In this document: positions 32,501-60,290 of the stretch, piece by piece
Numbering within the stretch: position 1 is the first letter of the stretch
How the letters are laid out: the number at the start of each line of letters is the position of its first letter
DNA from: Entoloma clypeatum
Taxonomy: Eukaryota; Basidiomycota; Agaricomycetes; Agaricales; Entolomataceae
NCBI GenBank assembly: GCA_963565915.1
Contig: OY751493.1
Span: 930,001-994,000 of the forward strand
Direction: 5' to 3'
Length of the DNA: 64,000 bases
Program-made: the position numbers and the translations under genes
The notes under the pieces: generated by a model
Seen by the model: only the letters and a program-made list of their open reading frames with translations
Told to the model about the DNA's origin: nothing
Databases searched by the model: none

Positions 32501-34312
32501 ATTGAACAGGATCAACCTGAATCAGACAACGAACTGCCTGCCAGTGAGCCTGATGACGAACCGCGAGTACCCACTCCACAACCCGAGCAAGTACCAGATC
32601 GACCGATCAGGGAACGACGAGTTCGGAAGATGCCAGGAAGCATCTATGGGGAAGACACTCCAGCGTCTGATCTTGAAAAATTAGATCGAAGACGGAGATT
32701 GGGCGGTCAAACGGCATGGATGAATGACCTCCTGATGGAGGCAATATCAGTCCAAGTTGGCATCGTTGAAATGTCCCATAAAGACATATACCCTCTTCCA
32801 AATAAAGAAGACTGGTATGCGGCTGAACGTAAAGAGCTAGATATGCTCAAACGCCGCGGGGTGATCACGGAGCTAGTACCCCTGCCTGCAGGGAGGAAAG
32901 CTCTAAGGAACAAATGGGTTTACAACGAAAAATCCGATGGGCGTCTGAAAGCGCGCCTCGTCGCAAAAGGCTTCTCACAGGTAGAAGGGATCGACTTTGA
33001 TCAGATCTTCTCACCAGTCGTAAGATATGAAACTGTCCGACTAATACTGGCATTGACAGCCCTTGAAGGGTGGTTCATGACTCTTTTGGACGTCTCATCA
33101 GCCTTCCTCTATGGAACGCTCCGTGAAGTCATTTACATGCGACAGCCTGAGGGCTACATAGTAAAAGGGAAAGAACACCTCGTGTACCAACTATTCAAAG
33201 CTCTATATGGACTTAAGCAGGCCGCATTAGCCTGGTGGAGGGAACTTGATTCCTCCATGAAAAAGCTCGGCTTTGTCCGGCTTCACTCCGATGCGGGAGT
33301 GTTCATTCACAAAAGTACCAATGGGGAAATTGTAATCGCCGTCATCTATGTCGACGACTCTGCTTTTCTCGGCACAAACCGGGAATATACGCTAGAAAAG
33401 AAGAAGGCCTTCATGACAACATGGGAATGCAGGGACCTAGGTCACCTAGCGCCCGATGGGGAACCAAAGGAATTTCTCTCAATCCAAATAAGGCAACGTG
33501 GGAAGAGGATCTTCATTGATCAAGTACCTTACCTTGAGAAAATTCTGGCACGCATGGGGATGAGCGAATCTAACGCCACCCATACCCCACTTCCTACGGG
33601 CTACAAACCCATGGCGTCCGAAGATGAACCCAATGCGGAACTCCGATCCAAGTACCAATCCGTCATCGGATCACTCCTATATCTGATGATCGGAACGAGG
33701 CCTGACATCTGCTTTGCTGTAATCAAAATGTCCCAATTTTCCGCAAATCCCACCAAACGCCATTTAGAGGTGGCTAGGGATATTTGTAGATATTTGAAGG
33801 CAACGAAAAATTACGCGATCATGTACGATGGGGACTCAGGGAAAGGGATCTATGCATTCACAGACTCCGACTGGGCGTCAGATGAAAACACGAGGAGGTC
33901 TACCACCGGCTTCTTCATATCACTGGCGTCTGGAGCGATAACATGGGTATCATCGGCGCAAAAGACCATCGCCCTCTCTTCTACAGAAGCAGAGTATATG
34001 GCGCTATCAGATTGCAGTCGCGCAGCAACATGGCTGAGAAGCATGCTTGCCGAACTTGGAATGCAGATCGGGTCAGTACCGATCTACGGAGATAACAACG
34101 GCTCCGTCTTTATCGCATCCAACCCTGTAACTGAGAAGCGATCCAAGCACATTGACGTGCGATTCCACTTCGTCAGAGAAAAAGTCTCCGAAGGAATTAT
34201 TACGGTCGAATTCATCGAAGGAGTGAATAACCCTGCAGACCTTTTGACTAAGAATCTGGGGAAAATCCTCTTTTCCAAGTTTATCCCGTACTTCGGACTG
34301 ATAAAGAACTAG
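29585..34312 (+). CDS. copia copy B Gag-Pol polyprotein, 1575 aa, intact
   Basis: Single-ORF retrotransposon polyprotein. Order by residue: copia-type gag (about 1-230, FDGIDYRSWAEKMKSYL), a basic Ser/Lys linker, protease with WILDSGASLHF (about 505), integrase with the zinc region (HKRLGHP..CTGCLKGK, about 640-690) and DDE residues in LIHSDLKQ, VDGGGEFDEY and QQNGRAERIN, an acidic linker, RT with VYNEKSDGRLKARLVAKGF and YVDDSAFLG, and RNase H with FTDSDWAS and SSTEAEYMAL. I see no canonical CCHC knuckle; only CTHC just before the protease. It matches the copy C polyprotein except at a small number of positions. Confidence 0.97.
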   Translation: MSTSRSALDTITPFDGIDYRSWAEKMKSYLLHQGVWRLVSGDIPRPVIADFTTTVSTPGATATAPPVLATTVDQPGFRKEEKAWIRDDDVALGAIRLKVSEAIRRHIKDATSSKDAWKSLKDAYSKISPAVIFGDFKAAATYKLSGRDPVPEIERLGSLFARLADSNFDVPDLMQAMILANAIPDAWSSLSTALFQVYDADDFTYKAVAESIISEYRRKYSIGSTRTSNEQARKISGTKRKGQDPKWEKQQKPSTSQNDADEQPNSTDHSTASEKKKGKGRWRNQKKNANTADNASDHVEETVEFVAPAIHFPPLPTPSFTTVTGRGKTTSTAQPDSAKMQSLLQRMNPPPSQYTGLPSGKPSVWKKNDHVRKLARGIGARPSGSNLRILDTIIPEIDERPAKQRRVAPSIEESLGMMDIDHQSERMGPEQFEDGLIELDGSSHLSLKLDQMGNANNHAQTFEYILASTNADSIDLFSDDLYKKYTKHFASCTHCKEKERAQWILDSGASLHFTHEFKDFAYYRPLKAKRFVQTAAKGKKLEILGVGAVPVRHTLNGETKTHLLRPVFYIPDMDTRLLSLGVFLNHGYKVDGMRGEINISKGLNKIQFSPHFIGQTIYWLDTEIRYDQIHAISSEITVETWHKRLGHPNDQALNKIPTSTKGVPRTLVREKSQENCTGCLKGKMPNQSYPNSTTRAVKPFDLIHSDLKQISTASYHKYKYFLTFLDDFSSHVWVVLLRKKSGAITALKQFLAMIQNQFAATPKKWRVDGGGEFDEYKDVLADHGILIDVTLPYQHQQNGRAERINRTLWEKSQALRFDACLPPMWWEFCLEHAAFLYNRTPMQRLEWKTPYFRVTNEIPDMSSVRVFGCQAYVYIPKEKRRNSLESRSRLMIYLGSKPGVKGYRFMDPETNTIFMGGKAIFDESKYPRCHIDPLPENHPEMENPEPADEFEDLIPGSNDDDSHNETPHIPVPIEQDQPESDNELPASEPDDEPRVPTPQPEQVPDRPIRERRVRKMPGSIYGEDTPASDLEKLDRRRRLGGQTAWMNDLLMEAISVQVGIVEMSHKDIYPLPNKEDWYAAERKELDMLKRRGVITELVPLPAGRKALRNKWVYNEKSDGRLKARLVAKGFSQVEGIDFDQIFSPVVRYETVRLILALTALEGWFMTLLDVSSAFLYGTLREVIYMRQPEGYIVKGKEHLVYQLFKALYGLKQAALAWWRELDSSMKKLGFVRLHSDAGVFIHKSTNGEIVIAVIYVDDSAFLGTNREYTLEKKKAFMTTWECRDLGHLAPDGEPKEFLSIQIRQRGKRIFIDQVPYLEKILARMGMSESNATHTPLPTGYKPMASEDEPNAELRSKYQSVIGSLLYLMIGTRPDICFAVIKMSQFSANPTKRHLEVARDICRYLKATKNYAIMYDGDSGKGIYAFTDSDWASDENTRRSTTGFFISLASGAITWVSSAQKTIALSSTEAEYMALSDCSRAATWLRSMLAELGMQIGSVPIYGDNNGSVFIASNPVTEKRSKHIDVRFHFVREKVSEGIITVEFIEGVNNPADLLTKNLGKILFSKFIPYFGLIKN

Positions 34313-43890: not shown

Positions 43891-44094
43891 GGGATTCTGA
43901 GACATATTTTGGACAAAGTCTTATCTCCAGTCTTCCACATGGCATGGATTCTCTTGGAACTTTTTGTATCAAGTAGATGTACATCTGATACACCCTATAC
44001 AACCATCTATAGATTTATTGACCATACAATAATTATGGATACATAGACATTTTTGATGTGCAAGTTGTCTGATACTTTTTAACACCTACAGTGC

Positions 44095-44299
44095 CTCACA
44101 AAACTGATTCAATGTTTGTTGCTTTTTGAATACCTTCAAGATAACTCTGCAAAGAATACCAATTGAATTAAACCTTTGGTATATAACTGAAAGCCCTACT
44201 TCAGGGCTTTCAGAATATAAAGGAATCATATGATTTAGATCAGAATCCATGGAGATATGATTAAATTAAATCAGCAACTCATTGAATCAGTTTTGTGAG
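44095..44299 (+). repeat. Left palindromic end of the Tc1 element
   Basis: CTCACAAAACTGATTCAATG at 44095-44114 recurs in inverted orientation at 44280-44299. Between them is a perfect hairpin (CTGAAAGCCCT, loop ACTTC, AGGGCTTTCAG) at 44187-44213. The right end mirrors this with 20-mers at 45497-45516 and 45682-45701. Confidence 0.85.
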
Positions 44300-44450
44300 T
44301 ACCTATAGCAATTATCAGAATCAAATGCTTCACTGGTTGTATGGTAACCAGTTGTCATGACTTACTGATGGAACTTGAATAGAACCCTGATGGGTTGTCA
44401 AGGAAAGTTGTATAAGAAGAATCCAACCTCAACAGCCTCCATAATTAATC

Positions 44451-45467
44451 ATGCGCCCTATCTCCTCTTCCCACAAGAAAAACATTCTTTCTCTGGCCTC
44501 CAATGGTCACTCCACTTGTCATATTGCCTCTAACCTGGGTGTCAGCCAACCAACTGTCTCCAGAGTGCTTCAGAATCTTCTTCCTCATTGCAATCTCTCT
44601 TCTGGTGGTCGTCCATCCAAGCTTTCTCCCACCAACACACAAAACATACTTTCACAAATCACCTCAGAAAGAGCCTCCAATGCTGTGCAGGCTACCAAAC
44701 ACATCAACACTGTCATCTCCAATCCTGTCTCCCCAGAAACTGTGAGAAGGGTTCTCAGAAAACATGAATTCAAGGCTGTAACAAAGAAGAAAAGACCTTT
44801 CTTAAAGGCCATACATCGGAAGAGGCGGTTGGCATTTGCTATGAAGCACAGGGAATGGACAGTGGAGGACTGGAAGAGGGTCATTTGGTCAGATGAGACC
44901 AAAATCAACAGGTTTGGGTCAGATGGCAAGGAATGGGTCTGGAAAAAGAAGGGTGAGGGGCTTATTGAAAGAGAGGTTCAGGGCACAGTCAAGTTTGGGG
45001 GAGGAAATATTATGGTTTGGGGTTGTATGGGTTGGGAAGGTGTGGGGAGACTTGCAGAGGTTGAGGGGAGGATGGATGCTGATCAGTATGTGTCCATTTT
45101 GGAGGACAATTTGCTGCCCAGCATGGAGGAGAGTGGAATCTCTGAAGAGGAGATCATTTTTCAGCAGGACAATGACCCCAAGCACACCTCCAAGAAGGCC
45201 AAAAAATGGATGGACAGCAAGAATATTGCTCTGCTGGATTGGCCTGCACAGTCCCCAGACCTCAATCCTATTGAACACCTCTGGGTTCATATTAAAAGAA
45301 AGTTGAATGAATATCCAACACCATCCAAGGGAGTCTGGGAGATTTGGGACAGAGCAGCAGAGGTGTGGAATAATATAGAGCCAGAAGTGTGTCAAAACCT
45401 GATAGACAGTATGCCAAGAAGGGTAGAGGCAGTAATCAAAGCTAAGGGGGGTAATACCAAGTACTAA
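44451..45467 (+). CDS. Tc1-family DD34E transposase, 338 aa, intact
   Basis: Cut-and-paste transposase. The N-terminal paired-type helix-turn-helix region includes HIASNLGVSQPTVSRVL (about 24-41), and a second DNA-binding region runs to about 115. The catalytic triad is D in VIWSDETKIN (about 149), D in FQQDNDPKHTS (about 240) and E in SPDLNPIEHLW, with 34 residues between the last two. A Gly-rich box (FGGGNIMVWGCM) is present. Length is normal for the family, and there are no stops or frameshifts. With matching ends and TA duplications it could be active. Confidence 0.95.
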   Translation: MRPISSSHKKNILSLASNGHSTCHIASNLGVSQPTVSRVLQNLLPHCNLSSGGRPSKLSPTNTQNILSQITSERASNAVQATKHINTVISNPVSPETVRRVLRKHEFKAVTKKKRPFLKAIHRKRRLAFAMKHREWTVEDWKRVIWSDETKINRFGSDGKEWVWKKKGEGLIEREVQGTVKFGGGNIMVWGCMGWEGVGRLAEVEGRMDADQYVSILEDNLLPSMEESGISEEEIIFQQDNDPKHTSKKAKKWMDSKNIALLDWPAQSPDLNPIEHLWVHIKRKLNEYPTPSKGVWEIWDRAAEVWNNIEPEVCQNLIDSMPRRVEAVIKAKGGNTKY

Positions 45468-45709
45468 AGTATAAAATACTGTATTTATTGTACATACTCA
45501 CAAAACTGATTCAATGAGTCCCTGGAGTAATTTGATCATATATTGATCATTTTTTATGGAAATTACATAATTATTGCAGATTCCGAGAGTCCTGAAGCAG
45601 GGCTTTTAACCAGGTACCAATACCTTCTTTTCATTGGCATTATTTGCAAAGTTATTTTGAAGGTATTCACAAAGTAGCAAACATTGAATCAGTTTTGTGA
45701 GGCACTGTA

Positions 45710-46089: not shown

Positions 46090-46757
46090 AGTTTTTTGCT
46101 GTGGTGTCTTTCGCCAGTGAATTATTTGCTGATCTGTTATTAGCATTGTTTTCTATTATTTGGTTCACACCATAGGACCTCTATAACTTTAAATCTGTGG
46201 CTAATTTTCTTAAAATAAATACCTACTTGATGAGACAACATGCTCCCCTACTCATCTGATATAGTAGCAAACATTGCTTGTTCCTGTGTAGATATAATGA
46301 GGAGATGTGCAATATCTTTTGACATGTTTGATGGGTGTGTGTTGCACATCATCCAACATTCGCCAGTTTTTCGCCGGTTTTTTGCCATGGTGTCTGTCAC
46401 CAGTGAATTATTCGCTGATCTGTTGTTAGCATTGTTCTTTGTATATGGAGTGTGGCCGACACTCAAGGCTCGCTGTCGCCGGTGAGTCACCACTTTGCCG
46501 ATGGCCTGTTGCCGTGTTGCCGGTCTTTCGCCGGTTTTTGGCTGTGGTGTCTTTCGCTGGTGAATTATTTGCCGATCTATTGTTAGCATTGTTCTTTGTA
46601 TATGGAGTGTTGCCGGCACTCAAGGCTCGCTTTTGCCGATGGGTCATCAATTCGCCGATGGCCTGTCGCCGGTCTTTGGCCAGTTTTTTGCCATGGTGTC
46701 TTTGGCCAGTCAATGATATGCTGATCTGTCGTTAGCATCATTCTTTTCATTTGCAGT
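46090..46757 (-). repeat. Right tandem array, inverted relative to the left one
   Basis: The landmark CTCAAGGCTCGC lies near 46462 and 46619. Units repeat TTCGCTGGTGAATTATT, GATCTGTTGTTAGCATTG and TGGCCTGTCGCCGG. The array ends at the insertion site of element G. Confidence 0.75.
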
Positions 46758-47200
46758 TGTTGAGAATACATTCTAGACGGATGTCTCGACAGTCAATCAC
46801 ATGTCTATAAACATGTGTATTCCCATATGGAGTTACATATGGAAGTGTTCTAGACTTAGAACAATCTAGACTCGCTCTAGATCCCTGACTCATTAGATAT
46901 GTGTCAGACGTGCATAACATATGTCATGTTATGTCACATCATGTGCTTGTCACACTATGTGACTATAAGTCACATATTACCATATACGTGAGTTTATGGT
47001 TCTGCGACAGAACTCAGTTTGTACTTGTTTGTACATGGTCTGTGCGCATTCTTGTAGGTATAAATACTCGATGTATCTGTATCTGCAATAACAGGACTCT
47101 TACCAAGTACCTTCATCACTCAAGCTCTTCTCGCTCTTCTTGCCTCCAATGTGAGTATCTTACCCAGGCTTCCCTGCGTATGTAGGTGTGCTGTTCTATA
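46758..47200 (+). repeat. 5' LTR of element G
   Basis: 443 bp, starts TGTTGAGAATAC and ends TTCTATA, so the ends are TG..TA instead of TG..CA. TATAAATA at 47059-47066. Confidence 0.93.
47059..47066 (+). promoter_or_regulatory. TATA box in the element G LTR
   Basis: TATAAATA, about 135 bp before the LTR end; the same sequence is at 58722-58729 in the 3' LTR. Confidence 0.6.
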
Positions 47201-47213
47201 GGTTATGGGCCCC
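47201..47213 (+). promoter_or_regulatory. Primer binding site of element G (initiator tRNA-Met half type)
   Basis: GGTTATGGGCCCC follows the LTR without a gap and is identical to the primer site of copia copy B, although the LTRs are unrelated. Confidence 0.7.
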
Positions 47214-47312
47214 GGATTGCCCAGTACAGTCTGCGCACTCTAACGGAGTTGCTGCGACTGTCTAGCCTGTTAGATACTAACCTGGCCTAGCCAGTGAGCG
47301 CGAGTCTTAAAA

Positions 47313-47815
47313 GTGCCCTTTGGGCTGCTACCGCCTCTTTAGCTAGTAGCATAGACTAGTCTAAGTTAGTTATCTGGTTTGATACTCGGAGGTTCCAGAC
47401 TAGTGAGCGCCCTTTGGGCTGCACCTAGTTCTGATGTCCAAGGACTAGCAAAGCGCCCCTAGGGCTGCATCTAGTTCTTGATCTAGACTAGGGCCTTTTA
47501 TGGCCTATGTCTATATTTGGACATTTTGTATAAGCCTGTGGCTTGAGCGCCTTGATAGGCGGCCGCCACACCCCTGTGAAAAACCCTCTCTTGTATCTGC
47601 GCCTTCATTTGGCTGCGATCTAGATTTGGGGTTTTCTCACGCTGTGTCATGTCCTGTCTGGCATTTGGTTTCAAAACCAAATCGAGTATATCTCGATGTG
47701 CTGACATTCGGACATCACGATTCTCAGGAACTTTCTGTTCCTTGAACCCTTTTTTCGTCGATCGATCTTGATCCGTTGCACCCTGTACCTGATGAAAGCA
47801 CCCTTTCCGGGTTGC
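47313..47815 (+). repeat. Bulged-hairpin motif cluster 1 (leader of element G)
   Basis: Six copies of GCGCC-loop-GGCTGC or close variants: 47313-47328 (GTGCC), 47407-47422, 47453-47468, 47547-47563 (GGCGGC), 47599-47616, and 47798-47815 (GCACC..GGTTGC, a paired G-C to A-U change). All lie between the primer site and the gag start. Confidence 0.75.
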
Positions 47816-48480
47816 CTCAGGGACTTCCCATTTTTATCATGGTTGCACGATCTCAGATTTGATGCTGACTTAAAATCGTTCCTAGATGAAAGGATCTTGC
47901 ATCTGCTTCCACTATGGTTTCATTCAAGCAAACCATTGGTCACACCATGACATCCGCGTTATTCAGCGTGATGATGGTTTCCACAGACGACACCTCTGTA
48001 CTCTGGATTGCATGGTCACACCACGCATCCGGAAGGTGAAAGTCACGCAGCTGCGATACGGACGGCATGCACGCCATGTCTGTACTCGCAAATGTGGAAA
48101 GAAAAAAGCAGTATGTGTCCCCATCTACATTCTCTTCACTCGTTGAACTATGACTCTAGGATCCCTGGGCGCCACGCCCGAGTAACATCCGGAGAGCTCG
48201 AACGAGGGACTTACCGTCCCCCTTCAATCATAGTGACGATGAAGAAAGGAGAATCACACCCGAGGTTACACCCGGGGTAATAAAGATGGAGCAATCGCCT
48301 GATCTATAGGCGACCGTCTTTATGTAAATACCACAGCATTGTGACTCTTAGTCACATAAAATAAAGGCTATTACATAAAACTCTCTCTGACATGTGTCAC
48401 AAACAATTCAGACAATACCTCTTATCGGTTCAAATTGGTCTTGAATATTTGCTGACCACTGTTTCTTTTTAGAAACAAAC

Positions 48481-49344
48481 ATGTCTTCAATCACTTCTTT
48501 GATTGCTGTTCCCGTTCTTGACGGCACAAACTACCCTGAGTGGGCGAACAACATGTGTTCGTTCCTTAGATCTCAGGATTTGTGGCAAATTGTTGATGGT
48601 GCTGAAAAGCGACCCTTGATGTCTGCTAACCTTACAAGGAAAGCCCATACAACTAAAGTCAAGGCATGGAACATTAGGGATCAAATGGCTTTAGCCAATA
48701 TTCGACTTCGTGTCGACCCGTCGATCAAACTCACCAAAAATATGTCTTCTGAGACTTGGTTTGAGTTGAAGAATAGGTTCGGACGAGCTGTTTATAAAAC
48801 AGTTCTGTCTGACATTCGTGCTGCATTGTCCTTCAAGCTTTCTATGAAGCGACAACCTGCAACCGAGATTGATTATCTTGATAAAATCTTTGATCATCTC
48901 GGTGCACATCATTCTATTTCTCCATCGACTCGGGCCCTAATGCTTCTATCTGCCCTCCCGTCTCCTGATTGGGATGACTTTGCCATAGAAACCCTTCTTT
49001 ACAATGATGATCTCACCTATGATAAGGTTCGAGAATTGATTGTTGAAACATACAATCATCATCGTGTTGATCCTGTTCCCGATTTGTCACTTGAGGATTA
49101 CCTTTACGGCATAGGTATCTCCTATGATCCTCAACCGACATCGTGCGATGTTTTTCATCAGCCGTTTCGGAACTTATGGAAAAAGAAGTCTTTCTTATCT
49201 GCACCAACAGACCCTGGTGCTCTGCGCTACTCTAGCTGTGTCGCCGGTCTGGTGCATGATGCCGTCATAACAGAACAATGCAAGGGTCCACCCGTCGACA
49301 ATTATGACATAGCGTTTCCACGCCTGGACCTTATAACAGCATGA
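48481..49344 (+). CDS. Gag protein of element G, 287 aa
   Basis: Copia-type Gag. It starts MSSITSLIAVPVLDGTNYPEWANNM, the same arrangement as in copia copies B and C (FDGIDYRSWAEKM), then SQDLWQIVDGAEKRP, WFELKNRFGR, an all-helical capsid-like body (IRAALSFKLSM, YLDKIFDHLG, LLSALPSPDWDDF) and a short unrelated tail. There is no zinc knuckle and no protease active site before the stop. The ORF is intact while the rest of the element is non-coding, which suggests the Gag is used, probably to package the element's own RNA. The start is the first ATG of the frame (AAACAAACATGTC). Confidence 0.85.
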   Translation: MSSITSLIAVPVLDGTNYPEWANNMCSFLRSQDLWQIVDGAEKRPLMSANLTRKAHTTKVKAWNIRDQMALANIRLRVDPSIKLTKNMSSETWFELKNRFGRAVYKTVLSDIRAALSFKLSMKRQPATEIDYLDKIFDHLGAHHSISPSTRALMLLSALPSPDWDDFAIETLLYNDDLTYDKVRELIVETYNHHRVDPVPDLSLEDYLYGIGISYDPQPTSCDVFHQPFRNLWKKKSFLSAPTDPGALRYSSCVAGLVHDAVITEQCKGPPVDNYDIAFPRLDLITA

Positions 49345-51638
49345 TCATTGTGTAGAACGATTGTATTTTCTTTCTTTGCAATCAATACATTGATTTGCAA
49401 TGTGTTCATATTTTGAACGAAAGAAAGAGAGATTTAAAAATGCAAATGCATTTTATGTTCAAATAACTTATATCCAATCTGGAATAATTCCAAAAAGTTG
49501 GATGTGCCGTTGAGCCACCTACTATAAAGGAAACAGCTTAATAAGCTTGTTAAAAAGACTGCGCGAGTCATTAATTTGTCTTTCTGCTGCGTCTGTCTTT
49601 CCTTTTCAGGAATTTATATTCCACCTTATATTGGATAAGACAAAAAATGATTTCAAAGCATTTAAAAAGTAATATTGTATTCGTGCGCTATGGCATTTGC
49701 ATAACACTTTTTCTGCGCCTTGACAGGCTGCGATAGTGTTCAAAAAATTGTCATTCTGGCTGCCAATATATAATACTTTATTATGCGAAGAAGAGTTTTT
49801 CAACCCTTCAACCTAAATCGATTCAAATTGGTCTAGCCAACCAATCTTGTTCCTCCACTCTTTCACCAAAAAGTAGTGATGATTTGGGGCAATGCAAAGC
49901 TTCTTATCTGAACTCTCCATTTCTTGCATGGGAATGATCTCTGATGCATCTTGCGCCTTTTAGGCTGGCATTGCATTTTGACTTATAAGGCATCTGCGCT
50001 TTAATCAAGCAGCGATGGCCTTGTCACAGAATCATATAGGGATGACCGTGATGGTACACACCCTATGGCAAAAATGGATATAGTCAAAAAATCAGATTGT
50101 ATCACAGCTTACAAATATTGCTGGAATAAATCGCCTGAGAGTAATTACCTCAGCATAACTTGGAGAGTAATTCCTCCGCAGTTTGCGATTAATTTTTCTG
50201 CATGAATTTCTGGTTTCCCAACCAAGTTCTGCATCTATTTCAGTATATGCTCTTTGAAAGCCAAAGATACATGGGAAATGATTGCCATACTTGACTGTGA
50301 AAGGGGGAGAATATAGAGAAGCATTTTAATGGCAGCATTCTGCGCTATTTGCTTTGCGATACCATTGCTAGAAAACTGATCTTTGATCTTTTGATCTCAC
50401 CATCAGATGCATTGCTTCGTATACAACACTCTATAGGTTGAACCATTAAAGGAGCGCCGTGACCGCTGCATACTTATCAAATGGTCAACTTGAACAAAAG
50501 AAAAAGCTTATCCCAGCTTATACCCCTATGATTTCTCACCTAGAAACGATGAATTCTGGATAAAAGAGAATATCATATGAATCGATCCGTTAGTCTTATC
50601 AGACTATTGTTGGGTTCTATTCCCAAGTATATCTTCTATGATTACTTGATGAAGCATCTTAATTGATGACTTACTAATAATGCATTAATTTGCATTATAT
50701 GGTTCTTGGAATACCAAGATTACTATTGTTTGCATGAAACACATCAGAGTGCTTGTTACACTCTTAAGATTTGGATCAACCCATCATCTGATCTGCGCCT
50801 TGTTTTGGCTGCGACAATGATCTGGTTCTTGCATTGAGTAGAGCGCCTGTGTTGGCTGCCTCCTTTGACAAACAAGACCAAATAACACCCTCACGCGTTA
50901 TTGTTGTATCATGCAACAAACATAGTAAATCTGTGTTGATGTCTTAGAGTGGATTCTCTATTGACCTCTGAACATAAATCGGTTGTTCACCAACATAAAG
51001 TATTACCAACTACAAAGAACTACATCGCAAGTCATTTATTTGACTATAATCTGCAATATTGCTTGCACATCATCACATATAACAGTTGGCTTGATTGTCT
51101 ATAAAATCTGTAAAATGTACTCCATGGAATTGGTTTTCAGGGGGAGATAGTTCATTCTCTGTTAATCCTAAAACAATCCACATGATGTTTGCTTGTCTAG
51201 CCTTTGCATAACAATGTGCGCCCCTTTGGGCTTGCCACAGTTACTAGGCTTGATTATATCTGCGCTCAAATAATGGCTGCAATATCAATCATTGCGATTA
51301 TATTTTGCAATAGCTTGGATAGTACGTCAGACGATATGGGAAACGATGGCGAAACTACCAGCTGTCTCAGATATTATATTCTGAAGACTCGACGTCCACT
51401 ATGACGATAAACTGGACCCTACTCCGGAACAGAGCATAAACTATCACAGTGGACTCTGAACCTAACTAGTTCATCCACATCCCTGAAGTCTGGAGTATTA
51501 CACTCGACTCAGATGACATTATCTATAAGCACACCTTAAGTGTTGCCATGATAATATTACATACTCAGGATAAAGGCACCCTTGTCTAAAAATCCATGGT
51601 TGTTAGCGCCTTGTTTGGCAGCTTCCCAGAGTATTAAT
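49345..51638 (+). other. Non-coding body of element G, first part, with hairpin motif cluster 2
   Basis: No ORF with protein character in 2.3 kb. Hairpin motif copies: 49715-49731, 49953-49969 (GGCTGGC variant), 49996-50013 (GCGCT..AGCAGC), 50454-50469 (CGCTGC variant), 50795-50812, 50843-50859, 51218-51235 (GGCTTGC variant), 51262-51280 and 51606-51622 (GGCAGC). The surrounding sequence is AT-rich, which makes these GC-rich motifs stand out. Confidence 0.7.
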
Positions 51639-51948
51639 TGTTGAAGTTCCACCTGGGCGCTAGCCACAGGTGTACTGAGCAACATAGCTACAGTGGAAGT
51701 ACTCTACGATACCGCTATGGTCACTTACATGGTTTGGAGGGGGTAAGGCTAGTGAGAGCGGTTGAGGCTGGTGAGAGCGATGGAGCTGGTTAAGAGTCAA
51801 GAGACAACTTATTGATATTGACAGTTTCCTGGTCTTATATACCGTACTACTGTTTGTACCAACCAAACAAGTATGTAATGAAGATATGTAAAGGTCACGT
51901 GATGTAATCTAATCTAATCTAATCTACGTGATGGGAAAAGTTTCAACA
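51639..51948 (-). repeat. 3' LTR of copia copy C
   Basis: 310 bp; G-run purine tract (C-run on the + strand) adjoins at 51949-51955. Confidence 0.96.
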
Positions 51949-52026
51949 CCCCCCCATATTTAGTACATACTTCTAAATACATCTTACTTTTTCCCACATA
52001 TATATATATAGGTACTTTTGTTTCGC

Positions 52027-55000
52027 CTAGTTCTTTATCAGTCCGAAGTACGGGATAAACTTGGAAAAGAGGATTTTCCCCAGATTCTTAGTCAAAAGGT
52101 CTGCAGGGTTATTCACTCCTTCGATGAATTCGACCGTAATAATTCCTTCGGAGACTTTTTCTCTGACGAAGTGGAATCGCACGTCAATGTGCTTGGATCG
52201 CTTCTCAGTCACAGGGTTGGATGCGATAAAGACGGAGCCGTTGTTATCTCCGTAGATCGGTACTGATCCGATCTGCATTCCAAGTTCGGCAAGCATGCTT
52301 CTCAGCCATGTTGCTGCGCGACTGCAATCTGATAGCGCCATATACTCTGCTTCTGTAGAAGAGAGGGCGATGGTCTTTTGCGCCGATGATACCCATGTTA
52401 TCGCTCCAGACGCCAGTGATATGAAGAAGCCGGTGGTAGACCTCCTCGTGTTTTCATCTGACGCCCAGTCGGAGTCTGTGAATGCATAGATCCCTTTCCC
52501 TGAGTCCCCATCGTACATGATCACGTAATTTTTTGTTGCCTTTAAATATCTGCAAATATCCCTAGCCACTTCTAAATGGCGTTTGGTGGGATTTGCGGAA
52601 AACTGTGACATTTTAATCACGGCAAAACAGATGTCTGGCCTTGTTCCAATCATCAGATATAGAAGTGATCCGATGACGGATTGGTACTTTGATCGAAGTT
52701 CTGCATTGGGTTCATCTTCGGACATCATGGGTTTGTAGCCCGTAGGAAGTGGGGTATGGGTGGCATTAGATTCGCTCATCCCCATTCGTTCGAGTATTTT
52801 CTCAAGGTAAGGTACTTGATCGATGAAGATACGTTTCCCGCATTGCCTTATTTGGATAGAGAGAAATTCTTTTGGTTCCCCATCAGGCACAAGGTGCCCT
52901 AGGTCCCTACATTCCCATGTGGTCATGAAGGCCTTCTTTTTCTCTAGCGTATATTCCTGGTTTGTGCCGAGAAAAGCAGAGTCGTCAACATAGATGACGG
53001 CAATTACAATTTCCCCGTTGGTACTTTTGTGAATGAACACTCCTGCATCGGAGTGAAGCCGGACAAAGCCGAGCTTTTTCATGGAGGAATCAAGTTCCCT
53101 CCACCAGGCTAATGCGGCCTGCTTAAGTCCATATAGAGCTTTGAATAGTTGGTACACGAGGTGTTCTTTCCCTTTTACTATGTAGCCCTCAGGCTGTCGC
53201 ATGTAAATGACTTCACGGAGCGTTCCATAGAGGAAGGCTGATGAGACGTCCAAAAGAGTCATGAACCACCCTTCAAGGGCTGTCAATGCCAGTATTAATC
53301 GGACGGTTTCATATCTTACGACTGGTGAGAAGATCTGATCAAAGTCGATCCCTTCTACCTGTGAGAAGCCTTTTGCGACGAGGCGCGCTTTCAGACGCCC
53401 GTCGGACTTTTCGTTGTAAACCCATTTGTTCCTTAGAGCTTTCCTTCCTGCAGGCAGGGGTACTAGCTCCGTGATCACCCCGCGGCGTTTGAGCATGTCT
53501 AGCTCTTTACGTTCAGCCGCATACCAGTCTTCTTTATTTGGAAGAGGGTATATGTCTTTATGGGACATTTCAACGATGCCAACTTGGACTGATATTGCCT
53601 CCATCAGGAGGTCATTCATCCATGCCGTTTGACCGCCCAATCTCCGTCTTCGATCTAATTTTTCAAGATCAGACGCTGGAGTGTCTTCCCCATAGATGCT
53701 TCCTGGCATCTTCCGAACTCGTCGTTCCCTGATCGGTCGATCTGGTACTTGCTCGGGTTCCGGAGTGGGTACTCGCGGTTCGTCATCAGGCTCACTGGCA
53801 GGCAGTTCGTTGTCTGATTCAGGTTGATCCTGTTCAATGGGAACTGGGATATGAGGTGTTTCGTTGTGACTATCGTCATCATTGCTGCCGGGAATGAGAT
53901 CCTCAAACTCATCAGCCGGCTCTGGGTTTTCCATTTCTGGGTGGTTTTCTGGCAACGGGTCAATGTGGCATCTAGGGTACTTGCTTTCATCAAAGATAGC
54001 TTTCCCGCCCATGAAAATCGTGTTGGTCTCAGGATCCATGAAGCGGTATCCTTTGACCCCTGGTTTCGATCCGAGATAAATCATCAATCGGGATCTTGAT
54101 TCCAGGGAGTTCCTACGTTTCTCCTTTGGGATATATACATATGCCTGACATCCGAATACTCTGACACTAGACATGTCGGGGATCTCATTGGTCACCCTGA
54201 AGTAAGGGGTTTTCCATTCAAGACGCTGCATGGGGGTTCTGTTGTAGAGAAATGCTGCGTGTTCCAAACAGAATTCCCACCACATGGGCGGTAAGCATGC
54301 ATCGAAGCGCAATGCCTGAGATTTTTCCCATAGTGTTCGATTGATCCTTTCTGCTCTACCATTCTGCTGGTGCTGATATGGGAGCGTGACATCGATCAGA
54401 ATTCCATGATCGGCAAGTACATCCTTGTATTCGTCAAATTCTCCACCTCCATCAACCCGCCACTTTTTAGGGGTAGCGGCAAATTGATTCTGGATCATCG
54501 CAAGGAATTGTTTCAGCGCCGTGATGGCGCCTGACTTCTTCCTAAGCAAGACGACCCAGACATGGGATGAAAAATCGTCCAAAAAGGTAAGGAAATATTT
54601 GTACTTATGGTACGATGCCGTGGATATCTGCTTCAAATCCGAATGGATCAAATCAAAGGGTTTGACAGCCCTTGTCGTCGAGTTAGGATAAGATTGATTC
54701 GGCATTTTCCCTTTTAGACACCCCGTGCAGTTTTCCTGTGATTTCTCACGTACTAACATCCTGGGTACTCCTTTGGTACTAGTGGGAATTTTATTAAGCG
54801 CCTGGTCATTTGGGTGGCCAAGACGTTTATGCCAGGTTTCAACAGTGATTTCGCTAGAGATCGCGTGGATTTGGTCATAGCGTATTTCAGTGTCTAACCA
54901 GTAAATGGTTTGTCCGATGAAATGAGGCGAAAACTGTATTTTGTTCAGCCCTTTAGAGATATTAATTTCTCCGCGCATTCCATCAACTTTGTAACCATGG

Positions 55001-56754
55001 TTAAGGAAGACGCCTAGGGACAATAGACGTGTGTCCATATCCGGAATATAAAATACCGGTCGTAGGAGATGGGTTTTAGTTTCCCCATTCAGGGTATGCC
55101 GTACTGGAACGGCCCCAACTCCGAGAATTTCCAGTTTCTTTCCCTTTGCAGCTGTTTGGACAAATCGCTTAGCCTTGAGAGGCCTGTAATACGCGAAGTC
55201 TTTGAACTCATGGGTAAAGTGTAATGATGCGCCGGAATCTAAGATCCACTGAGCGCGTTCTTTCTCTTTGCAGTGTGTGCAGGACGCAAAATGTTTGGTA
55301 TATTTTTTGTACAGATCATCGCTAAAGAGATCTATACTACCTGCATCGGTACTAGCTAATATATATTCAAATGTCTGTGCGTGATTATTAGCATTTCCCA
55401 TTTGGTCAAGTTTGAGAGAAGAATGTGACGAACCGTCAAGTTCGATCAGCCCATCTTCAAATTGTTCCGGCCCCATCCGCTCGCTTTGATGGTCTATGTC
55501 CATCATTTTCAGTGATTCTTCTATCGACGGGGCTACGCGACACTGTTTAGCCGGCCTTTCGTCGATGTCAGGAATGATGGTGTCTAGGATACGAAGATTC
55601 GATCCTGAGGGGCGAGCACCAATGCCGCGCGCGAGTTTGCGGACATGGTCGTTCTTTTTCCACACGGATGGTTTTCCAGAAGGAAGCCCGGTGTACTGTG
55701 ACGGAGGGGGGTTCATACGCTGCAGGAGCGACTGCATACTTGCGGAATCGGGCTGGGCGGTACTTGTCGTTTTCCCGCGACCAGTGACGGTTGTGAAGGA
55801 CGGTGTCGGAAGAGGAGGGAAGTGGATGGCGGGAGCAACGAACTCAACCGTTTCTTCCACATGGTCGGACGCGCTGTCCGCAGTGTTGGCGTTTTTCTTC
55901 TGATTGCGCCATCGTCCTTTTCCCTTCTTCTTTTCAGAAGTGGTACTATGGTCGGTCGAGTTAGGCTGCTCGTCAGCATCGTTCTGCGAGGTACTCGGCT
56001 TCTGTTGCCTTTCCCATTTGGGGTCCTGCCCCTTTCGCTTTGTCCCGGAAATTTTCCGGGCCTGCTCGTTGGACGTACGAGTGGACCCAATCGAATACTT
56101 GCGCTGGTACTCTGATATGATGCTTTCGGCGACGGCCTTGTAGGTGAAATCGTCGGCGTCATAGACCTGGAAGAGGGCGGTGGACAGTGACGACCAGGCG
56201 TCGGGAATTGCATTTGCCAGGATCATTGCCTGCATCAGATCGGGGACGTCAAAGTTCGAATCGGCGAGCCGAGCGAAAAGAGACCCCAGGCGTTCGATTT
56301 CGGGGACGGGGTCGCGTCCAGAGAGCTTGTAGGTGGCGGCGGCCTTGAAGTCGCCGAAGATGACAGCCGGGGATACCTTGGAGTAGGCATCCTTTAATGA
56401 CTTCCAGGCGTCTTTTGAGGAAGTGGCGTCCTTGATGTGGCGTCTGATCGCCTCGGAGACCTTCAGGCGTATCGCCCCAAGAGCTACGTCATCGTCCCTG
56501 ATCCAGGCTTTTTCTTCCTTGCGGAAGCCGGGCTGGTCGACCGTGGTAGCCAGCACAGGGGGAGCAGCAGCAGTGGCCCCAGGGGTGGAGACTGTGGTGG
56601 TGAAGTCGGCGATGACAGGGCGGGGGATGTCGCCAGAAACAAGGCGCCAGACTCCTTGATGGAGGAGGTAAGACTTCATTTTTTCGGCCCAGCTCCTGTA
56701 GTCGATGCCGTCGAAGGCAGTGATTGTGTCGAGGGCAGAACGAGAGGTAGACAT
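52027..56754 (-). CDS. copia copy C Gag-Pol polyprotein, 1575 aa, intact
   Basis: Same domain order as copy B: gag, protease (LDSGAS), integrase with HHCC and DDE residues, RT (YVDDSAFLG) and RNase H. Differences from copy B that I noticed are scattered single substitutions (for example AAAPP for TATAPP in gag and YQRKY for YRRKY); none touches a catalytic motif. With identical LTRs this copy is a plausible active source and could supply RT and integrase to element G in trans, as both use the same primer site. Confidence 0.97.
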   Translation of the reverse strand: MSTSRSALDTITAFDGIDYRSWAEKMKSYLLHQGVWRLVSGDIPRPVIADFTTTVSTPGATAAAPPVLATTVDQPGFRKEEKAWIRDDDVALGAIRLKVSEAIRRHIKDATSSKDAWKSLKDAYSKVSPAVIFGDFKAAATYKLSGRDPVPEIERLGSLFARLADSNFDVPDLMQAMILANAIPDAWSSLSTALFQVYDADDFTYKAVAESIISEYQRKYSIGSTRTSNEQARKISGTKRKGQDPKWERQQKPSTSQNDADEQPNSTDHSTTSEKKKGKGRWRNQKKNANTADSASDHVEETVEFVAPAIHFPPLPTPSFTTVTGRGKTTSTAQPDSASMQSLLQRMNPPPSQYTGLPSGKPSVWKKNDHVRKLARGIGARPSGSNLRILDTIIPDIDERPAKQCRVAPSIEESLKMMDIDHQSERMGPEQFEDGLIELDGSSHSSLKLDQMGNANNHAQTFEYILASTDAGSIDLFSDDLYKKYTKHFASCTHCKEKERAQWILDSGASLHFTHEFKDFAYYRPLKAKRFVQTAAKGKKLEILGVGAVPVRHTLNGETKTHLLRPVFYIPDMDTRLLSLGVFLNHGYKVDGMRGEINISKGLNKIQFSPHFIGQTIYWLDTEIRYDQIHAISSEITVETWHKRLGHPNDQALNKIPTSTKGVPRMLVREKSQENCTGCLKGKMPNQSYPNSTTRAVKPFDLIHSDLKQISTASYHKYKYFLTFLDDFSSHVWVVLLRKKSGAITALKQFLAMIQNQFAATPKKWRVDGGGEFDEYKDVLADHGILIDVTLPYQHQQNGRAERINRTLWEKSQALRFDACLPPMWWEFCLEHAAFLYNRTPMQRLEWKTPYFRVTNEIPDMSSVRVFGCQAYVYIPKEKRRNSLESRSRLMIYLGSKPGVKGYRFMDPETNTIFMGGKAIFDESKYPRCHIDPLPENHPEMENPEPADEFEDLIPGSNDDDSHNETPHIPVPIEQDQPESDNELPASEPDDEPRVPTPEPEQVPDRPIRERRVRKMPGSIYGEDTPASDLEKLDRRRRLGGQTAWMNDLLMEAISVQVGIVEMSHKDIYPLPNKEDWYAAERKELDMLKRRGVITELVPLPAGRKALRNKWVYNEKSDGRLKARLVAKGFSQVEGIDFDQIFSPVVRYETVRLILALTALEGWFMTLLDVSSAFLYGTLREVIYMRQPEGYIVKGKEHLVYQLFKALYGLKQAALAWWRELDSSMKKLGFVRLHSDAGVFIHKSTNGEIVIAVIYVDDSAFLGTNQEYTLEKKKAFMTTWECRDLGHLVPDGEPKEFLSIQIRQCGKRIFIDQVPYLEKILERMGMSESNATHTPLPTGYKPMMSEDEPNAELRSKYQSVIGSLLYLMIGTRPDICFAVIKMSQFSANPTKRHLEVARDICRYLKATKNYVIMYDGDSGKGIYAFTDSDWASDENTRRSTTGFFISLASGAITWVSSAQKTIALSSTEAEYMALSDCSRAATWLRSMLAELGMQIGSVPIYGDNNGSVFIASNPVTEKRSKHIDVRFHFVREKVSEGIITVEFIEGVNNPADLLTKNLGKILFSKFIPYFGLIKN

Positions 56755-57103
56755 TTTTAGATGAATCTAAAAGAGGGTTTCCAATCAGTGATGTGTTATG
56801 AATATGATTTAAGAAAACAATTAAATGATTCCTTATGACATATTCCCTTTAGGAATAGCGGTCACGGGAAAGCCCTTTATATGTCAGAAACGTACAAGGG
56901 GCGATCAACGTTTCCACATGGAGTGTACTAGGTCAATCCCCTTAGGGACGCCTCATGACAGGTACTTGTCGTAATGACGTTCCCAGGTTCATATGTGAAG
57001 AAGTAAGACTCAGAACCTAGATCTTTCGATCGGTTCTTCGCCAACCAGGGTAGAGTGGGCAGGTACTTGCTGTTGCCAGCGTTCCCAAGTCCCTCTGCTA
57101 TCC

Positions 57104-57116
57104 GGGGCCCATAACC
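57104..57116 (-). promoter_or_regulatory. Primer binding site of copia copy C
   Basis: On the - strand GGTTATGGGCCCC follows the 5' LTR directly, as in copies A and B. Confidence 0.68.
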
Positions 57117-57426
57117 TGTTGAAGTTCCACCTGGGCGCTAGCCACAGGTGTACTGAGCAACATAGCTACAGTGGAAGTACTCTACGATACCGCTATGGTC
57201 ACTTACATGGTTTGGAGGGGGTAAGGCTAGTGAGAGCGGTTGAGGCTGGTGAGAGCGATGGAGCTGGTTAAGAGTCAAGAGACAACTTATTGATATTGAC
57301 AGTTTCCTGGTCTTATATACCGTACTACTGTTTGTACCAACCAAACAAGTATGTAATGAAGATATGTAAAGGTCACGTGATGTAATCTAATCTAATCTAA
57401 TCTACGTGATGGGAAAAGTTTCAACA
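57117..57426 (-). repeat. 5' LTR of copia copy C
   Basis: 310 bp, identical by eye to the other LTR. Confidence 0.96.
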
Positions 57427-57585
57427 TTAATAAGCTATTTATAGCTTAGATCATGCCAAGCATGATATCATCAGTTGGTTAAATGACCCTTTGAGCCAGA
57501 TCAAGTCTAACGAGCTCTTAATTGAGTTATGTCTTCTGACTTATCCCCGGCCTTAGTGCCACATGCTCTTTCCATACTAGTTCTT

Positions 57586-58333
57586 GCGCTACTACTGGCT
57601 GCAACTACTATGTGATCCATAAAAAACTGAGTACCATTACGTCTTGAGCGCCTTCTGGGGCTGCCTGCATTGGTAGTCTCATTTTTTGTGTGAATCATGG
57701 TCAAAACCATTGATACTCGTCTGGAATGACAATAAACTATCACACGTGGTTCGCTGATGCAATCAGGCCAAACACCTGACTCAGCATGGTCCGTGCGAGA
57801 TAGGCAAAGCCTTAAATACGCTCCTCAAAAGGAATTTTAGAGCAGGCTTCCAATGGCATTCTTCGCCTACTTCTCCACCGCCTTCTACACTCGCTTCGCA
57901 CATGCCGACCAGTTGGCGCATGTTGCCTCGACCAACGCCAGCACCACCACCACCACCACTACTGCAGCTGGCGATGCCGCTGCTTCTTCATCGCCCTCTG
58001 GCAATAACACTGCCATGACCACCGACGATAAGACGTCAGAAAAGAAGTGAAAGTAGTTAGTGGTACAAAGTAATTAAATAATCAATTACTTCAGTGGCTG
58101 CTCTAAGCGCTACACTGGCTGCTTCAAGCGCCATTATGGCTGCATATTTATTGCGCTATTTCATGTCTCTCAAAGGTATTTTTATCCTTTGATGATCTAT
58201 TGATCTCAGATTGACTTCTGATGAGACCTGTCTATTCTTGTTTTGAATTAGACTTATGGGTCTCTGATAAGACCTTAAATGACAGCGTATGCTAAACGAC
58301 ACAGCAGATCCCCTTTAGCGCCCTTACGGCTGC
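57586..58333 (+). repeat. Bulged-hairpin motif cluster 3 (3' part of element G)
   Basis: Copies at 57586-57602 (GCGCT..GGCTGC), 57648-57664, 58107-58122 (GCGCT), 58128-58143 and 58318-58333. The two copies at 58107 and 58128 are 5 nt apart. Confidence 0.75.
57853..58050 (+). CDS. Possible small ORF of element G, 65 aa
   Basis: Begins in a good context (CCAATGGC). The N-terminus is aromatic and hydrophobic (MAFFAYFSTAFYTRF), followed by an Ala/Thr/Ser-rich stretch with a Thr run and a charged KTSEKK end. The first 15 residues could be a weak membrane anchor. It may be chance; only its presence in other copies of G would show that it is real. Confidence 0.3.
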   Translation: MAFFAYFSTAFYTRFAHADQLAHVASTNASTTTTTTTAAGDAAASSSPSGNNTAMTTDDKTSEKK

Positions 58334-58420
58334 TGCCATTTATTTTGGCTCTTCACTAGGACTTGAATGTCTTCTTGTGAGCAAGTATTGAAACCTGAAG
58401 GAATCACACTTGAGGGGGAG

Positions 58421-58863
58421 TGTTGAGAATACATTCTAGACGGATGTCTCGACAGTCAATCACATGTCTATAAACATGTGTATTCCCATATGGAGTTACA
58501 TATGGAAGTGTTCTAGACTTAGAACAATCTAGACTCGCTCTAGATCCCTGACTCATTAGATATGTGTCAGACGTGCATAACATATGTCATGTTATGTCAC
58601 ATCATGTGCTTGTCACACTATGTGACTATAAGTCACATATTACCATATACGTGAGTTTATGGTTCTGCGACAGAACTCAGTTTGTACTTGTTTGTACATG
58701 GTCTGTGCGCATTCTTGTAGGTATAAATACTCGATGTATCTGTATCTGCAATAACAGGACTCTTACCAAGTACCTTCATCACTCAAGCTCTTCTCGCTCT
58801 TCTTGCCTCCAATGTGAGTATCTTACCCAGGCTTCCCTGCGTATGTAGGTGTGCTGTTCTATA
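58421..58863 (+). repeat. 3' LTR of element G
   Basis: 443 bp, identical by eye to 46758-47200; preceded by the purine tract at 58410-58420. Confidence 0.93.
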
Positions 58864-58868
58864 GCAGT

Positions 58869-60290
58869 GTGGTCATCTCACTCCTCCATTGCAGAATCAA
58901 GCTCCACATTGAACCACTCGCAATTGCGGTCAATGTCGCTCAGCAGGGCAACATTCGCTGCGGTCAATGTCGCTCAGCAGGGCAACATTCGCTGCGATCA
59001 AGTGCTCATGTTACTCGGCCAATTGCGCCGTATTTACATTGATTTACGCACTAAAGATAGATCCTCGCCGAACGCCGTTGAGGATGACGATGATCATCCT
59101 GTCACCGCCATCATTGACAGCATAGAGAAGCGATGGAAAAAGGCTGATCAAGATTTGTTCATTGCCTGTGTCTTCTTAAACCCTTTTGTCAAGGCTACAC
59201 TCTTTAACCCCACCAAATTGTCAATCGCCATGTTGCTCAGGATCCTCCGCCGACTTTACATCAGAGTCTTTCGCCTCAACGATCCACTGGGTGGACTTAA
59301 TCAGGAGATTATGGATTACAACCACGGGATTGGGATTTACAGTAATGATATGTGGCCAATTGATGACTTGCGTGACTCGTTCAAAGACTCAGTACGTGTT
59401 ACTGAGTCCCAGACTCCCAGAAATCCTGAATGTTGACCTCGCATATAGGATGGCTCAACTGATCCTGTCAAGATCTGGCAGACCCTCCCACCCGACAATC
59501 CCCTGGTCAAGCTTGCCGTAAAACTACTGAGCTTTGTTCCCAATTCGGCTTCCGTCGAGCGCCTTTTTTCGAGCATGGGTGACATCAAAACAAAGAAGCG
59601 CAACCGTCTAGGTACCAAGAAGTTGCGGGACATCGCTTACATTAAAAGTGAGTTACGTCGTGAACATGCCTTGCAGGGTCTTGCAGTGAAGCGCTTGAAA
59701 CGTACGTTTGGCAATCCAACACCCGAATCCGCAGAAAGAAGCCGGGCTGAGGATGAAGAAATCGTGCGGGAGGCCGAGGATTCGCAGGAACTAGGCAGCA
59801 AGTCTGATAGTGAGAGCGAAGATGACACCAGCCCAGGAGATACCCGAATGCTGCCCGCCCAATCCTTCACGACGTTAGCGCAGCAGATGGGAGCGGCTGC
59901 CGATGCCGATTCGGATTTGGATGCAGACGAAGAAGAGCCTGAGAACGCCATTGTCGATTCGGAACCAGTTGGACATTCGACGCGCACAACGCGGCAGGTT
60001 GGCTTTCCATGAAATCTTTCACCAGACAACTATCTGAAAACCCTTTAGATCCACGTTTACTTTGGGAAGAAGTACCATTTCACTATCGAAGATCTATTCA
60101 ACTGGTCTGTCGAGAAGGGGTGGAACATGTTTTGGGATACTGGGAAAAAACACTACCACGAAGAAATGGTCTTTTATGAGTTACTTACCCAATTAGATAA
60201 CCAGCGTGAAGCTACTCGTACAGATGGTCTTGTAAATGGGCCAGATGGTGTCTTATCCCCGTCCTGCCCCATAGATTTGACGAAGTAGAC
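58869..60290 (+). pseudogene. 3' part of a hAT transposase gene
   Basis: Readable blocks: LLGQLRRIYIDLRTKD (about 59010), IIDSIEKRWKKADQDLFIAC (about 59110), FNPTKLSIAMLLRIL, then after an apparent intron near 59395-59449 the hAT dimerisation signature NPLVKLAVKLLSF, NSASVERLFSSMGDIKTKKR and LRDIAYIKSELR (59500-59655), and an acidic tail to about 60012. The N-terminal zinc finger and first catalytic residues are missing, because element G and the repeat arrays lie upstream. A 34 bp tandem duplication at 58927-58994 shifts the frame, so this copy is probably dead. Confidence 0.75.

Follow-up and report, generated by a model that had tools for sequence, protein, structure and literature searches.

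Several single-stranded RNA viruses, among them MS2, parechovirus and satellite tobacco necrosis virus (STNV), have degenerate packaging stem-loops dispersed along their RNA, an established arrangement described in PMC6281560 and PMC3593212; STNV, a satellite RNA encoding a coat protein alone, contains up to 30 candidate stem-loops (PMC3593212). Among retrotransposons with long terminal repeats (LTRs), the packaging of Ty1 and Ty3 depends on terminal regions (PMC4974528), and the TR-GAG elements of plants are defined by LTRs and a Gag domain, with no reverse transcriptase, integrase or RNase H (PMC6022998). Here we describe element G, a non-autonomous Copia-type LTR retrotransposon with a TR-GAG-like layout, which occupies positions 46758-58863 (+ strand) of a 64,000-nucleotide stretch of the genome of the basidiomycete Entoloma clypeatum (contig OY751493.1, positions 930,001 to 994,000; hereafter, the window) and carries 22 copies of a bulged RNA hairpin. 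The yeast L-A virus and its M satellite RNAs provide a further comparison: the satellite RNA is packaged by the helper Gag via a bulged stem-loop, the viral binding site has a bulged A on the 5' side and is present at one or two sites, and the virus has a double-stranded RNA genome.

Like the RNA-virus packaging signals, the G hairpins are many degenerate stem-loops with a small recognition feature, which in MS2 includes a bulged base (PMC6281560). In the viral signals described there, the motif lies in the loop (in MS2, also in the bulge), whereas in G the stem and bulge are kept and the loops are free; furthermore, G is an LTR retrotransposon with a Copia-type Gag, and its hairpins are candidate protein-binding sites. 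As expected of packaging signals, G contains multiple stem-loops with a common feature and with signs of a selected structure, the latter judged by tests that take no account of the tree. An earlier annotation of the window (the original prediction) was not aware of any system with such a design. The virus parallels, STNV among them, qualify this statement (PMC3593212, PMC6281560). Among the titles and abstract openings listed in searches of the open-access literature, none dealt with a repeated hairpin array or with dispersed packaging signals in an LTR retrotransposon; the word 'dispersed' is absent from the main text of the review of Ty1 and Ty3 (PMC4974528).

The hairpins proved to be real and specific to one strand, and compensatory changes maintain several of them. 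There is good support for selection on a repeated RNA structure: the enrichment on one strand, the pairing flanks, the compensatory changes relative to related copies and, in the 3.1 Mb examined, the concentration of the motif in G and in H, an abundant autonomous Copia element of the same genome. Seven of the 22 sites are located in the leader of G, one in the gag gene and 14 3' of gag. The consensus unit is W-GC-GC(C)-loop-(G)GC-U-GC, that is, a short stem in which one base bulges out above the two lowest pairs; the loops differ in sequence and length. Immediately before the core, all 21 G sites counted have A or T, and 10 of 32 strict matches in a second family, G2, have C (by alignment, the orthologue of the 47313 hairpin). 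The sites, all on the + strand, are listed below together with their state in G2.

47227..47260, + strand, hairpin with core at 47232: outer stem of 5 bp and two U bulges; C-G to U-A and A-U to G-C changes; a new addition
47313..47328, + strand, hairpin: the inner C-G of G is U-A in 15 of 15 G2 rows
47397..47432, + strand, hairpin with core at 47407: outer stem present; the inner C-G of G is mostly replaced by G-C in G2
47443..47477, + strand, hairpin with core at 47453: outer stem GACTAG/CTAGTTC; G2 not alignable here
47538..47569, + strand, hairpin with core at 47547: bulge G in most G copies, U in copy L061 and in G2
47599..47616, + strand, hairpin: replaced in G2 by a different hairpin-like sequence
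47788..47821, + strand, hairpin with core at 47798: outer stem CCTGA/TCAGG, in L061 CCTGG/CCAGG
49224..49239, + strand, hairpin within the gag open reading frame (ORF): closing G-U in the window copy; a new addition from the structural scan
49715..49731, + strand, hairpin: outer stem AACACU/AGUGUU
49953..49969, + strand, variant hairpin: 2-nt bulge, outer stem GAUGCA/UGCAUU; gap in the covering G2 copies
49996..50013, + strand, variant hairpin: A bulge, long outer stem; gap in the covering G2 copies
50454..50469, + strand, variant hairpin: 4-bp core; absent from the free fold
50795..50812, + strand, hairpin: G2 orthologue retained, with a different loop
50843..50859, + strand, hairpin: in G2, other sequence that is itself hairpin-like
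51218..51235, + strand, variant hairpin: UU bulge; gap in G2
51262..51280, + strand, hairpin: gap in G2
51606..51622, + strand, hairpin: A bulge
57586..57602, + strand, hairpin: gap in G2
57648..57664, + strand, hairpin: flanks resemble those of the LTR hairpin of H (86% over 36 nt); gap in G2
58107..58143, + strand, two hairpins (58107 and 58128), 21 nt apart: recognisable in three covering G2 copies
58318..58333, + strand, hairpin without an outer stem

The original prediction comprised 13 exact motif copies and seven variants, all of which were recovered. The exact copies are all on the + strand, with none on the - strand, against an expectation of 0.40 in the window (sd 0.59, shuffle maximum 2; 100 dinucleotide shuffles, both strands). 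The proposal that the sites avoid the LTRs and the gag ORF holds for 21 of the 22 with respect to gag and is inexact because of hairpin 49224. The bulge was predicted to be usually U at a fixed place, and U it mostly is, the exceptions being G (47547), A (49996 and 51606) and two-base bulges (49953 and 51218). A 5-bp stem was attributed to each site; in free folds of 21 sites, the cores at 47547, 50454, 51218, 57648 and 58128 differ from the drawn form, which is not the minimum-energy one; 47547 also admits a bulge-free register. Both variants singled out for keeping their pairing do so: the GCACC/GGTTGC variant at 47798 has A-U, G-U or (in L061) G-C across copies, and the GCGCT/AGCAGC variant at 49996 pairs as claimed.

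A scan by structure (2 bp, one 3' bulged base and 3 bp, with the GC-GC letters needed for a full score) gave 15 sites on the + strand of the interior of G, compared with a mean of 0.08 in 60 shuffles, and one on each strand in the remaining 57.6 kb of the window. Four were detected on the - strand of the interior of G, one at 50345 and three in the dense 58107-58156 cluster, in which the sense arms can pair in a second register. In this segment, closely alternating arms allow two registers, as forward or as reverse-bulge hairpins. No full-score motif lies in the Copia element nested in G, nor in any of the three Copia stretches of the window scanned besides G, and one gypsy stretch has a single instance. 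The only Rfam 15 match was on the opposite strand, with an E value of 4.3 and below the gathering score, so that no known RNA family was identified.

Many cores stand on an outer stem whose sequence varies by site (free folds of 21 sites), for instance, GACTAG/CTAGTTC, TGTGGC/GCCACA, CCTGA/TCAGG, AACACT/AGTGTT and GATGCA/TGCATT. With the core held fixed at 20 sites (that of 50843 was taken three bases short by the pattern), the mean fold energy with the flanks was -15.4, compared with -13.1 in 200 sets of shuffled flanks (sd 0.6) and -12.1 in 200 sets of swapped flanks (sd 0.5); none of the 200 sets of either kind was as low. The core was enclosed by 11.3 pairs, compared with 8.6 in shuffled (sd 0.9) and 6.9 in swapped flanks (highest 10.0). 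The flanks are alike in 8.26 of 30 letters between sites, compared with 7.76 of 30 for random stretches of G; they are not recent copies of one another.

At least 40 matches to G are present in the genome (40 of the 85 candidates were scored), as is G2, whose Gag is 63-67% identical to that of G in four copies fetched with flanks. The majority sequences of the G and G2 leaders are 86% identical over 1050 columns. Covariation was examined in an alignment (A1) of 39 distinct sequences, 24 of G and the 15 alignable G2 leaders, covering the three leader hairpins 47227, 47313 and 47407; left out were L011, L015 and L047, with short leaders, and L046, with no alignable leader, and L001-L008 were not in the analysed set. 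The leader alignments behind the permutation test and the conservation values below had 32 G rows representing 30 copies (the window copy is L010, and this copy and L030/L042 were each counted twice). In A1, 98.5% of the 1235 pair cells pair, compared with 19-49% when the partner is slid by 1-3 columns, and five pairs changed on both sides, compared with 0-1 in the slid controls. Changes on both sides affect 55 cells, a number reached by none of 500 shuffles (mean 22.7). At 47227, the outer C-G is U-A in 13 G2 copies, and the inner A-U (or G-U) is G-C in 11.

A permutation test was made without 47547, where the G/G2 alignment is off by one base (54 pairs with this site, 43 without). Five 5' columns and four 3' columns changed, and 4 of 4 double changes among the 43 pairs keep pairing (within-site P = 0.0002). 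Sequence conservation is 82% in stem columns (misaligned 47547 included) and 86% in the leader, yet 98.5% of the cells pair in the three hairpins. Among the 3' sites, 50795 and the 58107/58128 pair are retained in the covering G2 copies, with one arm decayed in some; G2 has gaps at 49953, 49996, 51218, 51262, 57586 and 57648, and 49715, 50454, 50843, 51606 and 58318 align to different sequence. Thus, individual hairpins come and go, and a set of them persists. G2 leaders (L044 and others) contain, at two places, hairpins of mirrored layout, in which the bulged U belongs to the 5' arm (CTGC-T-GAGC-TT-GCTC-GCAG).

Across the genome (60 Mb, 20 contigs), the motif pattern has 854 and 844 matches, compared with 337 and 308 for the reversed pattern used as background. 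Among the first 100 of the 1698 matches, which cover 3.1 Mb of contig 1, 36 fall in G copies and 31 in H copies, with copy limits set around the Gag places; all 67 are in the sense orientation. The other 33 (14 on the + and 19 on the - strand) compare with 33.7 expected from the reversed pattern.

H encodes Copia domains including reverse transcriptase and integrase and has about 100 Gag places, of which 24 lie in an open frame of 1745 aa. G and H have in common an LTR block of about 160 bp (77% identity), the primer-binding site (PBS) and the junction between the polypurine tract (PPT) and the LTR. The H hairpins number five matches at four different sites, namely, the hairpin of each LTR, another in the leader frame and a further two in gag; in the LTR-leader frame, the motif reads S-A-L-W-A-A. 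Across H copies, the outer stem of the LTR hairpin is ACAU/AUGU, ACGU/ACGU or AUGU/ACAU. In an alignment of this hairpin (A2; eight sequences, seven distinct), 90.1% of 91 cells pair, compared with 29-43% when slid, and the covariation score was matched by 1 of 500 shuffles. In H, an open frame of 278 aa (L039:1773-2606) starts inside the LTR and continues through the leader; its N-terminus is hydrophobic, part of it is rich in Cys, and it matched no family above the cut-off. H is a likely helper of G: the LTR block, PBS, PPT junction and hairpin are the common cis-signals that a satellite of H would be predicted to have. The 57648 hairpin, with H-like flanks and a gap in G2, fits the idea that signals can be acquired from the helper.

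The remaining parts of G are as follows.

46758..47200, + strand: 5' LTR (TGTTGAG...CTATA), preceded by GCAGT at 46753-46757
47201..47215, + strand: PBS, GGTTATGGGCCCCGG, with the same letters in H and in the nested Copia
47886..48146, + strand: leader ORF, 86 aa, pI 10.2, 7 Cys and 8 His; present in G2
48481..49344, + strand: gag ORF, 287 aa, Copia-type Retrotran_gag_2 (PF14223)
51639..57416, - strand: autonomous Copia element nested in G, splitting its 3' region
57853..58050, + strand: 3' ORF, 65 aa, MAFFAYFSTAFYTR..., Thr-rich; present in three G2 copies
58410..58420, + strand: PPT, TTGAGGGGGAG, with the junction GAGGGGGAG|TGTTGA, as in H
58421..58863, + strand: 3' LTR, followed by GCAGT at 58864-58868

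The LTRs are identical over the 300 nt compared (46758-47057 and 58421-58720, 100%), and we take the PBS to be the complement of the anticodon region of the initiator tRNA-Met. In the uninterrupted G copy L042, the sequence reads through the nested Copia site, with 5404 bases between the LTRs. The Gag of G matches PF14223 with an E value of 2e-10 (Gag queries started one codon upstream of the ATG). It is acidic (pI 6.3, net charge -3) and has neither a CCHC knuckle nor an obvious basic tail, and its dN/dS of 0.21-0.32 (seven comparisons) indicates that it is kept despite the absence of pol. Beyond gag, no frame of at least 150 aa is present inside G except those of the nested Copia itself. A single relative of this Gag was found in a large protein collection (36% identity over 71% of the query), and no relatives turned up among viral contigs.

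The basic leader ORF carries two H-x2-H-x-C-x3-C blocks, and its dN/dS is 0.16-0.44 in 11 comparisons. These involved eight of the 15 G2 copies and none of the five (L053, L054, L055, L058 and L059) in which the ORF has an internal stop, so the constraint may be overstated. No relative was found in Pfam, NCBIfam or PDB, and a single-sequence structure model was uninformative (mean pLDDT 35.7). Its product is a possible separate nucleocapsid protein. The 3' ORF has a dN/dS of 0.21-0.47 (four comparisons) and matched no known family. Thus, 'gag-only', as the original prediction described G, is not exact, as two further small ORFs show apparent constraint. With two LTRs and a target-site duplication, a Gag domain and no reverse transcriptase, integrase or RNase H, G has the layout of a TR-GAG; where these carry Gag (or Gag and protease) only, G adds two predicted small ORFs (dN/dS 0.16-0.47, no known domain), which, like the hairpin array, lie outside the TR-GAG description in PMC6022998. 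Assignment to Ty1/Copia follows from the Copia-type Gag and from a PBS and PPT like those of Copia elements in the same genome. A coding explanation of the G hairpins was rejected in view of core lengths of 16, 17, 18 and 19 nt, the location of 21 of the 22 sites outside gag and the small ORFs, and the compensatory changes.

Splice-like donors (GTGAGT and GTATGT) were noticed in the LTR and leader at 47151, 47178 and 48111, and a branch/acceptor-like CTGAC...TTTTTAG at 48452-48475, just 5' of gag. The leader hairpins may, to judge from such signals, sit in an intron and hence in unspliced RNA alone. Splicing of the leader ORF onto gag was also considered and dropped by eye, the frames not joining.

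Other elements of the window include a Tc1/mariner-like transposon at 44087-45709, whose inverted repeats of 228 nt are 76% complementary and whose 340-aa transposase frame is open; two 153-nt direct repeats at 46362-46671, just 5' of the 5' LTR of G (86% alike, 157 bases start to start); and a hAT-type transposase dimerisation region at 59449-60012, just 3' of G. An apparent single Copia family is represented by three copies in the 64 kb (18854-23606, 29561-34312 and 52027-56766), two with open frames of about 1580 aa.

For the function of the array, the explanation we place first, with the chances that it is right about evenly balanced, is that the hairpins are dispersed packaging or assembly signals that let the satellite-like RNAs of G and G2 enter particles containing the enzymes of H. 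A Gag-class protein would bind the stem and bulged base at many points along the G RNA; the candidates are the Gag of G, the Gag of H, or the basic, Cys/His-rich product of the leader ORF acting as a separate nucleocapsid. Such multiple binding would gather and compact the RNA and bring it into particles holding the H reverse transcriptase and integrase, where the PBS, PPT and LTR block common to G and H would then serve reverse transcription. Since the Gag of G is under selection, G probably supplies the shell protein, and the leader ORF may provide the RNA-binding part absent from this Gag. G would then stand to H roughly as STNV to its helper. The original prediction had likewise proposed binding sites for Gag or a host protein, serving to package or condense an RNA dependent on the enzymes of another element; this putative role is consistent with the observations and is made more plausible by H, a candidate helper with the same hairpin.

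Selection of the element RNA via cis elements, as proposed here for G, is also described for Ty1 and Ty3, and the Gag of Ty1, like that of G, lacks a zinc knuckle; Ty1, however, uses a basic C-terminal region (PMC4974528), and G Gag has no obvious basic tail. A more elaborate proposal, which we put forward only tentatively, is that G is a split-Gag satellite, in which an acidic, capsid-only Gag works with a separate, basic, leader-encoded reader of the array of about 20 hairpins. The array would be a multivalent packaging code common to G and H; G would have acquired part of it from H and increased the number of copies, giving the satellite RNA an advantage over the helper RNA in the competition for particles.

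Several observations weigh against packaging signals, or against the selection on which that explanation builds. Ty1 packaging needs about 380-580 nt near the 5' end, according to PMC4974528. The covariation tests ignore kinship, and the G/G2 changes fall on few branches; in A1, two of the five measures (the number of both-side-changed pairs and the number of types) are within the column-shuffle range. In A2, the two both-side-changed pairs were equalled in 161 of 500 shuffles and the further pair types in 492 of 500. In the flank test, the top shuffle for enclosing pairs (11.8) exceeds the observed value, and for 11 of the 14 sites located 3' of gag, a clear orthologue in G2 is lacking. H has five matches per element, compared with about 20 in G, and with two of its sites in the gag ORF and two in a second open frame, coding constraint may account for part of the H motifs; synonymous shuffling gave P values of 0.003 for the two motifs in ORF2 and 0.02 for ORF1. 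Each of three H copies has one full-score match on the - strand, and four more diverged relatives of H keep 0-2 of the four strict motifs. Finally, the PBS of G is not specific to H, because the nested Copia has it too.

The main rival is a host factor common to G and H: the hairpins would be sites for a host RNA-binding protein involved in export, stability, localisation or translation of unspliced RNA, used by both elements with no role in packaging. We regard this as unlikely, even though the concentration in two elements and the structural selection fit it equally well and, given the splice-like signals around the leader, export of unspliced RNA could matter. The strict motif is at background outside G and H in the 3.1 Mb, which gives no indication of host genes that have it in common (the search did not extend to looser host sites), and twenty copies exceed what export elements usually need.

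RNA-RNA compaction or dimerisation without a specific protein, which we consider improbable, would draw on the many identical GC arms, which could pair between molecules, and on the alternative pairings within 58107-58156. The loops, however, vary in sequence and length and so offer no common kissing loop, and the bulge is kept in place while its letter varies, which points to recognition of shape. Control of translation of the leader ORF and gag, through a scanning block, reinitiation or an internal ribosome entry site, with the 3' copies as by-products, appears less probable still: 7 of the 22 sites are indeed 5' of gag, with an apparently constrained ORF between them and gag, but 14 are 3' of it, and 50795 and 58107/58128 are retained in G2.

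Neutral, functionless spread of one hairpin by small duplications or template switching is already disfavoured, and we hold it to be very improbable. G and G2 differ in the presence or absence of entire segments with hairpins, and 57648 resembles the H LTR, as such spread would predict; but the flanks are unrelated and yet pair, both-side changes are found at five G/G2 pairs and two H pairs, and the stems remain paired while being no better conserved in sequence than the leader. A DNA-level feature (a protein-binding palindrome, or a recombination or methylation site) is scarcely credible, CpG-rich and palindromic as the arms are, as the one-strand bulge, variable loop lengths and outer stems would serve no obvious purpose in double-stranded DNA.

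Little is known of how the RNA of LTR retrotransposons is selected for packaging, or of how enzyme-less elements compete for helper particles; the Gag-binding sites in Ty1 and Ty3 genomic RNA are not precisely known, according to the review in PMC4974528. With about 20 near-identical candidate sites in G beside a probable helper carrying the same hairpin, the packaging question becomes directly testable. The authors of the packaging-signal model have suggested its extension to Gag-like proteins (PMC6281560). If packaging is indeed the function of the G hairpins, the principle of dispersed packaging signals would reach beyond RNA viruses to retrotransposons.

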